Part shown: piece after piece, positions 29,269-30,048 of the stretch
Numbering within the stretch: the first letter of the stretch is position 1
How the letters are laid out: every line of letters begins with the position of its first letter
Source: Melioribacter sp.
GTDB taxonomy: Bacteria > Bacteroidota > Ignavibacteria > Ignavibacteriales > Melioribacteraceae
DNA length: 64,000 nt
Reading direction: 5' to 3'
Assembly: GCA_003155655.1 (NCBI GenBank)
Contig: PMDS01000026.1
Span: 88,161-152,160 of the forward strand
Made by a program: the position numbers and the translations under genes
Notes under the pieces: model-generated
Told to the model about the DNA's origin: nothing
The model's input: the letters and a program-made list of their open reading frames with translations, nothing else
Database searches by the model: none

Positions 29269-29341
29269 CGCGGGGTGGAGCAATTGGTAGCTCGTCGGGC
29301 TCATAACCCGAAGGTTCTAGGTTCAAGTCCTAGCCCCGCTA
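29269..29341 (+). tRNA. Initiator tRNA-fMet (CAT)
   Basis: The 73-base gene folds into a cloverleaf: acceptor strands GCGGGG and CCCCGC, a D-arm, an anticodon stem TCGGG/CCCGA with loop CTCATAA (anticodon CAT), and T-stem CTAGG/CCTAG with loop TTCAAGT. Two features mark it as the initiator rather than an elongator Met tRNA: three consecutive G-C pairs in the anticodon stem, and an unpaired 1-72 position (C1 opposite U72). The CCA end is not encoded (CTA follows the discriminator A). It has its own promoter and terminator. Confidence 0.93.
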
Positions 29342-29349
29342 CTAAAAAG

Positions 29350-29385
29350 AAGGTTCTTTTTGATTTTCAGAAAGAACCTTTTTTA
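29350..29385 (+). terminator. Terminator of the initiator tRNA
   Basis: Arms AAGGTTCTTT and AAAGAACCTT form a 10-bp stem with an 11-base loop, followed by TTTTATTTT. It lies 8 bases after the tRNA. Confidence 0.85.
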
Positions 29386-29403
29386 TTTTCCATTAGAGAT
29401 ATA

Positions 29404-29667
29404 ATGAACTATTACGTATACATAATAAAAAGTATTGAAGGGTTTCATTACACTGGTCAGACTTCGGATTTGGAGAAAAGACTTTTTGAGCACAATCATC
29501 AACTTTCTCATTCTACCAAACACGGGCATAACTGGGAAATTATTTTTAAGGAAGAATACACAACACGTTCAGAGGCAATGAAAAGAGAGAAATGGTTAAA
29601 ATCAGGTGCAGGTAGAAATTGGCTCGTAAGAAATTTACCTGGGTGGAGTCCGCCAAGGGCGGAGTAG
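29404..29667 (+). CDS. Small GIY-YIG nuclease-domain protein
   Basis: From ATG 29404 the protein has 87 residues: NYYVYIIKSIEGFHYTGQTSDLEKRL carries the GIY-YIG motifs (YVY and YTG) and the conserved Arg, and TTRSEAMKREKWLKSGAGRNW holds the later Glu. This is the UPF0213-like single-domain family often found next to tRNA genes in Bacteroidota. The frame is open upstream through the tRNA (to 29275), but that extension is only tRNA sequence read as protein. The last eight codons (GWSPPRAE and stop) are coded by the decayed second tRNA copy and its inserted palindrome, so the original C-terminus has been replaced. It may be a mobile nuclease cassette; activity is not shown. Confidence 0.85.
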   Translation: MNYYVYIIKSIEGFHYTGQTSDLEKRLFEHNHQLSHSTKHGHNWEIIFKEEYTTRSEAMKREKWLKSGAGRNWLVRNLPGWSPPRAE

Positions 29668-29783
29668 CTCGTCGGGCTCATAACCCGAAGGTTCTAGGTT
29701 CAATCCGTTAGCTAACGGACTAGCCCTCCCCGACAAAAAACATCGGGACAAGAATGCCCGCAGAGCGGGACAGGCTGCTACTA
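29638..29783 (+). pseudogene. Decayed second copy of the initiator tRNA, broken by palindromes
   Basis: Forty bases (29664-29703) are identical to 29287-29326 of the intact tRNA, covering the D-arm 3' side, the whole anticodon arm and half of the T-arm. GGGTGGAG before them matches the tRNA 5' side, and CTAGCC and GCTACTAA after them match its 3' side. Between these pieces lie extra palindromes: TCCGCCAAGGGCGGA in the D-loop (29649-29663), TCCGTTAGCTAACGGA in the T-loop (29704-29719), and a longer stretch ending in CCCGCAGAGCGGG (29757-29769) in the acceptor strand. The copy cannot fold as a functional tRNA. It follows the GIY-YIG gene and has its own terminator. Confidence 0.8.
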
Positions 29784-29788
29784 AGAAA

Positions 29789-29818
29789 AAATCCTCAACT
29801 TTTAGTTGGGGATTTTTT
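29789..29818 (+). terminator. Terminator after the decayed tRNA copy
   Basis: Arms AATCCTCAACT and AGTTGGGGATT (one wobble pair), loop TTT, then a T-run of six. Its sequence differs from the first tRNA terminator, so the unit was not simply copied whole. Confidence 0.8.
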
Positions 29819-29869
29819 ATTTGTGGTGGTCTGAATAAGAATTGATTGCAAGCTGAGGAGTTCCGGCGA

Positions 29870-30006
29870 AAGTCGGAACGACGAAGTCCCGATAAGTGAA
29901 ACGCAATCGGGACTGAGAATGGCGAAATCGAAACGAAGTCCCGCGACGAGTTTACGAGTCAGCGGGATCCTAGCCTTCCCGCAGAGCGGGATAAACTGCT
30001 ACTAAA
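29870..30006 (+). repeat. REP-like palindromes with a third tRNA 3'-end remnant
   Basis: The stretch has an inverted repeat GTCCCGAT...ATCGGGAC (29886-29913), then CCCGC...GCGGG (29940-29965), then TCCTAGCC and GCTACTAAAA. The last two match the 3' end of the initiator tRNA and its flank, split by TTCCCGCAGAGCGGG and a few more bases (29976-29996). It therefore looks like the end of a third, more decayed tRNA unit. No gene is present between 29668 and 30048. Confidence 0.6.
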
Positions 30007-30048
30007 ACTTAGAAGCCACCTTGACAGGTAGCTTCTAAGTTATATTCT
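30007..30048 (-). terminator. Terminator of the AIPR gene (probably bidirectional)
   Basis: The stem ACTTAGAAGC / GCTTCTAAGT extends inward with one wobble. On the minus strand it is followed by TTTTAG and ends the AIPR gene one base after its stop. On the plus strand it follows the third tRNA remnant as the other two terminators follow their units. Confidence 0.7.

Follow-up and report, generated by a model that had tools for sequence, protein, structure and literature searches.

The window, by which we mean the whole 64,000-nucleotide stretch of Melioribacter sp. DNA analysed here, contains an intact initiator tRNA gene followed on the same strand by a small open reading frame (ORF), a displaced copy of the same tRNA and the stump of a third (Table 1). 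In the displaced copy, tRNA positions 5-68 occupy 29641-29726 and the acceptor end extends to 29783; the core at 29664-29703 is identical in 40 of 40 bases to 29287-29326 of the intact tRNA-fMet gene (E 5e-18). The T-loop is broken by TCCGTTAGCTAACGGA after GGTTCAA, and two hairpins (TCCCCGACAAAAAACATCGGGA and CCCGCAGAGCGGG) split the 3' acceptor strand. The third stump is 89% identical to the second unit over 28 bp. The initial annotation had recognized a second initiator tRNA copy with a perfectly matching centre, palindromes in its D-loop, T-loop and acceptor strand, a third unit reduced to a split 3' end, and a separate terminator for each unit. The alignments bear out all of this, reveal a further acceptor hairpin and three different terminator-like hairpins, and answer in the affirmative the question whether the displaced copy was ever a tRNA. 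The annotation overlooked the ORF lying between the intact tRNA-fMet and the displaced copy.

Table 1. Features of the initiator tRNA locus, in coordinates of the window.
Feature	Position	Strand	Basis
Intact initiator tRNA-Met(CAU), functional copy	29269..29342	+	ARAGORN; Rfam RF00005, 64.8 bits
Terminator-like hairpin 3' of intact tRNA, AAGGTTCTTT...AAAGAACCTTTTTT	29350..29386	+	sequence
GIY-YIG nuclease ORF, 87 aa (MNYYVYIIKS...PPRAE)	29404..29667	+	Pfam PF01541
Displaced tRNA-fMet copy: tRNA positions 5-68 and interrupted acceptor end	29641..29783	+	alignment
D-slot hairpin TCCGCCAAGGGCGGA, in place of CAATTG of D-arm/loop	29649..29663	+	
T-slot hairpin TCCGTTAGCTAACGGA, of the 31-copy dispersed palindrome family of the source genome	29704..29719	+	
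Hairpin TCCCCGACAAAAAACATCGGGA in 3' acceptor strand of displaced copy	29727..29748 (about)	+	sequence; TCCCCGA..TCGGGA
Hairpin CCCGCAGAGCGGG in 3' acceptor strand of displaced copy	29757..29769	+	sequence
Terminator-like hairpin 3' of displaced copy, AATCCTCAACTTTTAGTTGGGGATTTTTT	29788..29819	+	sequence
Older third stump (3' end): CTAGCC + TCCCGCAGAGCGGGA + CTGCTACTAA	29970..30004	+	sequence
Terminator-like hairpin 3' of third stump	30007..30041	+	sequence

Five TCC..GGA hairpins lie within ~340 bp at this locus, whereas the 66 kb of non-coding sequence in a 464-kb sample of the source genome contain 42. This local density rules out palindromes occurring everywhere by chance, and the even spread over intergenic DNA that had been raised as an objection to hairpin insertion is not seen in the sample. 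Downstream of the third stump lies an AIPR-family protein gene (PF10592, E 2.4e-25; 30049-31245, minus strand), of a family annotated as abortive-infection phage resistance; it is adjoined by a gene for a 668-aa protein without a Pfam match (32082-34088, minus strand). Elsewhere in the window, two long perfect hairpins, nearly mirrored (CTGTCAGGGACCATTCCCTGACAG, CCGTCAGGGAATGGTCCCTGACGG), are found ~700 bp apart at 53415-53438 and 54123-54146 and are perhaps the ends of another small element.

The ORF matches the GIY-YIG family PF01541 (E 7.5e-15) and, below the cut-off of that model, the group I intron endonuclease family TIGR01453 (E 3.5e-5). Its stop codon falls within the displaced tRNA copy. 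Residues Y6, Y16, R26, H30 and E62 are invariant across seven relatives, and the conserved GIY-YIG positions are kept in the window ORF; by the conserved Tyr/Tyr/Arg/Glu residues it is a member of the GIY-YIG nuclease superfamily. The nearest solved structures identified by profile search are UPF0213 and SLX1. Rfam detected tRNA alone in the window and no group I intron RNA around the ORF, and neither intron nor intein surrounds it; the gene is free-standing. Estimates of dN/dS, both between array neighbours and between orthologues, are mostly 0.05-0.2, with higher values of 0.7-0.8 in two close pairs with few differences, and indicate that the GIY-YIG lineages are under purifying selection. 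On a tree of 118 proteins, built from few columns and containing many unresolved forks, the associated tRNA isotype changes 38 times versus 79.8 times with shuffled labels (0 of 200 shuffles as low); the 18 fMet nucleases, drawn from several phyla, account for two isotype changes. By this tree, nuclease lineages keep to one tRNA isotype across phyla.

The arrangement of an intact tRNA, a GIY-YIG ORF and a displaced, partial copy of that tRNA whose loops hold hairpins, hereafter the unit, occurs five times in the source genome, which was read in segments surrounding matches and in one 400-kb sample. Besides the window ORF, seven GIY-YIG matches were found there (the weakest with E 0.06), and five of these ORFs lie directly 3' of intact tRNAs for Ser(GCT), Asp (two in tandem), Lys and Pro(CGG), each followed by a hairpin-bearing part of the same tRNA. 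The gene is present in 35 of 39 genomes of the same order. An adjacent same-strand tRNA was seen in 40 of 42 inspected relative loci, with a tmRNA in its place at one further locus (L028), and a same-strand tRNA lies within 400 bp in 73 of the 82 nearest relatives' loci (two from viral contigs, the others the 80 nearest in the database). Chance adjacency is estimated at ~1% or less, assuming about 45 tRNAs per 4 Mb. The units adjoin most tRNA isotypes, and tmRNA once; the alternative in the initial annotation of a former array of initiator tRNAs is thus too simple, the copies being part of a GIY-YIG/tRNA unit found beside many isotypes. Record titles of the relatives name Ignavibacteria/Melioribacter (Ignavibacteriota), Bacteroidetes (Bacteroidota), Acidobacteria and many Patescibacteria as well as Omnitrophota, Planctomycetota and Margulisbacteria. 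The few relatives in viral contigs (two) and phage records (four) do not favour a phage origin. A group I intron lies near three tRNA-less family members (L120, L137 and L155), which fits kinship with intron-encoded homing nucleases.

Units come in two polarities. Either the intact tRNA is 5' of the ORF and a displaced 3' part follows the ORF, or a displaced 5' part precedes the ORF and the intact tRNA is 3' of it. Tandem arrays contain three to five identical or near-identical units; in a tRNA-Leu array of five 450-bp units and a tRNA-Asp array of five 315-bp units, the leading tRNA is whole and each copy after it has the hairpin. At L028 (1121-1800), the unit stands behind the tmRNA gene and includes a displaced tmRNA 3' domain with two hairpins in its T-loop. 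Two other loci look different. The GIY-YIG match at L034 (G036 contig 27:15121-15354) differs from the small, free-standing genes in lying within an open frame of 1339 aa, and the GIY-YIG gene at L014 (contig 75 of the source genome), without a tRNA, is flanked by structured repeats GGTGTCCGAGTTC...GTATCGAGGACACC (1300-2000 and 2995). These repeats also contain TCCGTTAGCTAACGGA, and at L184 the stem-loop repeat recurs, tipped by the palindrome.

The syntenic recN-fMet locus, compared between species rather than strains, is occupied in the source genome (G000) and G020 and shows no trace of the unit in G004, G007 and G010. G009 has no ORF there and retains a displaced copy with a T-slot hairpin; in G001 the sole remnant is an upstream copy with a D-slot hairpin. 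Present and absent alleles thus exist at one site, as at homing endonuclease sites, and the empty sites and nuclease-less remnants indicate that the unit comes and goes.

Intact functional tRNAs are free of hairpins, which sit in the non-functional displaced copies of variable length. At least one inserted hairpin of five or more pairs is present in 121 of 146 displaced copies. A tRNA loop is touched by 155 of the 179 hairpins, where 112.5 +/- 5.6 would be expected, and 105 of the 134 short replacements have their centre in a loop, against an expectation of 58 +/- 5.7. Tandem copies of differing sequence are scored separately here, which leaves the counts partly dependent on one another. The insertion into loops suggested by the initial annotation is upheld as a preference. 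The D (47/75), anticodon (55/75) and T loops (55/88) are interrupted at about equal rates. Entire anticodon arms are swapped for a hairpin of similar length in Pro, Lys, eMet and Gln copies. Clean double hairpins occur at GTTC^GA in Glu, Ser and Arg copies and in the same T-loop slot of the tRNA-like part of tmRNA; in several relatives the hairpins are double, whether at GTTC^GA or within the D/anticodon loop, and those of the window are single. In fMet copies, two slots (GGAG^hp^GTAGC; GGTTCAA^hp^CT) are each filled in seven to eight genomes, by different hairpins. Control of ORF translation by the hairpins was ruled out as a general rule, because the two polarities place them on opposite sides of the ORF, 3' in the first and 5' in the second.

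Dispersed palindromes are one source of these hairpins. TCCGTTAGCTAACGGA has 31 copies in the source genome and almost none in congeners. In the 26 of these copies that were read, the flanks of a copy are complementary more often than flanks paired across copies as mismatched controls (permutation p = 2e-4), and several copies cap terminators or other stems; 38 other TCC..GGA hairpins show a weaker trend towards complementary flanks (p 0.007). The CCCGCAGAGCGGG family has three near copies elsewhere in a 0.46-Mb sample of the source genome, in which seven of 14 source-genome hairpins tested have no near copy. All five copies of TCCCGACTAGTCGGGA in G037 sit within its Asp array. Such private hairpins rule out that slot hairpins always come from a dispersed pool; dispersed palindromes supply some of them, not all.

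The nuclease superfamily and the homing mode are of kinds already known. The closest parallel is SegB of phages T4 and T6, a free-standing GIY-YIG enzyme encoded beside phage tRNA genes without an intron and found in tandem tRNA-segB repeats (PMC13096335; PMC2988022). The T6 enzyme cleaves inside tRNA genes, with a preference for RAWTSGAAC, and causes tRNA-Tyr/segB to amplify in tandem (PMC13096335); on the other strand, by our own reading, this motif is GTTCSAWTY, which fits the T-loop. Unlike segB, the units described here are chromosomal, occur in many phyla with one lineage per isotype, encode proteins of about 85 aa and have displaced tRNA copies with hairpins. Group I intron-encoded GIY-YIG homing endonucleases belong to the same superfamily, and an intron is near the three tRNA-less members mentioned above; the units have no intron, and the tRNA is whole through a second copy rather than by splicing. 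Mitochondrial double-hairpin and repetitive hairpin elements (sponge RHE) are likewise short hairpins, single or double, that are scattered through non-coding DNA, with one reported within an rRNA gene (PMC2800124), whereas the present hairpins are bacterial, prefer displaced-tRNA loops and are linked to a nuclease gene. REP/BIME sequences with RAYT and IS1397-type elements, in the part of that literature cited in PMC7338519, are extragenic palindromes or insert into palindromic units. RAYT is a Y1/HUH transposase, whereas the hairpins here have TCC..GGA ends and occupy tRNA slots, and the only ORF of the unit is GIY-YIG. The MORFFO of fern plastomes are mobile ORFs reported to adjoin tRNA genes and palindromes (PMC7338519) in an unrelated setting, and the GIY-YIG/tRNA-copy unit is not described there. 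A search of open-licence papers found no bacterial tRNA/GIY-YIG/palindrome system, nor a chromosome-wide tRNA/GIY-YIG unit with hairpin-tagged copies.

Taking these comparisons together, the locus is probably part of a large family whose members are free-standing GIY-YIG homing endonuclease elements beside tRNA genes, with palindromes filling the loops of the displaced copies. On comparative sequence evidence, the view that the units are free-standing homing endonuclease elements of tRNA genes is well supported, and that of loop-seeking palindromes accumulating in displaced copies is moderately supported. The nuclease would break tRNA alleles that are empty and, at times, the tRNA of its own unit, the latter giving rise to arrays; recombination would copy in the ORF and a tRNA piece, leaving one tRNA whole and the duplicate displaced. 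Palindromes favouring hairpin tips, that is, centres of dyad symmetry in tRNA arms, terminators or other palindromes, would fill the loops of the unconstrained copy, removing its tRNA function and probably the nuclease target too. Against the homing reading, the intact tRNA in cis stays whole though it is expected to be a target as well.

The main rival for the hairpins, possible but unlikely in our judgement, is target immunity. In the displaced copy, each hairpin would break the site that the nuclease itself recognizes; site-keeping copies would be cut or deleted, hairpin-bearing units would survive, and the hairpin would be part of the mobile unit. The motif that phage SegB cuts (PMC13096335) contains the GTTC^GA point at which Glu, Ser, Arg and tmRNA copies have clean double hairpins, and among displaced copies spanning the T-loop motif, 63 of 86 are interrupted and 23 uninterrupted, so that disarming of a SegB-like site is attractive but unproven. 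The fixed fMet slots, the hairpin in all units of an array and the restriction of one G037 hairpin to its array are also consistent with immunity. However, the site is retained in the intact cis tRNA, the three loops are interrupted about equally, and immunity leaves the hairpin nature of the interruption unexplained. By crude loop scoring, slot use shows no clear clustering by nuclease clade (T, 15 changes versus 16.9 shuffled; anticodon, 13 versus 13.5), and the tree gives no support to slots as clade-specific nuclease sites. Because the loops are hit equally, the tree shows no clustering and the neighbouring tRNA could in principle be cut, we prefer loop-seeking palindrome insertion, tolerated in displaced copies only. 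A bolder extension, in which isotype-specialised GIY-YIG nucleases spread by copying tRNA-gene pieces and also drive the spread of tip-inserting palindromes that mark and silence displaced RNA-gene copies in several phyla, seems to us quite unlikely.

It is distinctly unlikely that the palindromes are moved by the GIY-YIG enzyme, acting on branched or hairpin DNA, in a REP/RAYT-like pair with a different nuclease. Copies of TCCGCCNNNGGCGGA rise with GIY-YIG gene number (Spearman 0.56, p 2e-4; 39 genomes, phylogeny ignored), the profile search matches the structure-specific nuclease SLX1 besides UPF0213, palindromes sit at hairpin tips, and the L014 gene lies between structured repeats with the same palindrome; yet G018 and G020 have many GIY-YIG genes and few such palindromes. 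We give equally little credence to the hairpins being a conserved RNA feature, for processing or for preventing folding with the functional tRNA, that is inherited vertically with compensatory changes. Hairpin arms do covary at the fMet D-slot (0.98 paired versus 0.74 permuted; 0 of 2000 permutations as good) and T-slot (2 of 2000 pair as well), whole anticodon arms are replaced by hairpins of similar length, and the source genome and G018 have a Pro hairpin, GGCGCC..GGCGCC, in common. Against this, one and the same slot is filled by unrelated hairpins in congeners, the T-slot hairpin of the window belongs to a dispersed family nearly absent from them, covariation is weak at the Asp slot (128 of 2000 as good), and hairpins either 5' or 3' of the ORF have no common place in an mRNA. 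That a duplicated tRNA array simply decayed and acquired palindromes by chance, for which the lost function and varying length of displaced copies might speak, is hardly credible given the recurrence across phyla, a GIY-YIG gene per unit, the loop preference and the fixed slots.

Recurring beside many tRNA genes in several phyla, the units look like a widespread, apparently undescribed family of tRNA-gene parasites. This suggests that very small mobile elements homed at tRNA and tmRNA genes form a large class in Ignavibacteriota, Bacteroidota, Patescibacteria and others, and accounts for the many small 'GIY-YIG nuclease' genes sitting at tRNAs in these genomes. The displaced copies provide a clear record of short palindromes entering hairpin loops, making the long-standing question of how palindromes spread directly testable. 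By analogy with SegB, amplification by a tRNA-associated nuclease may be a general way in which tRNA copies come to lie in tandem.
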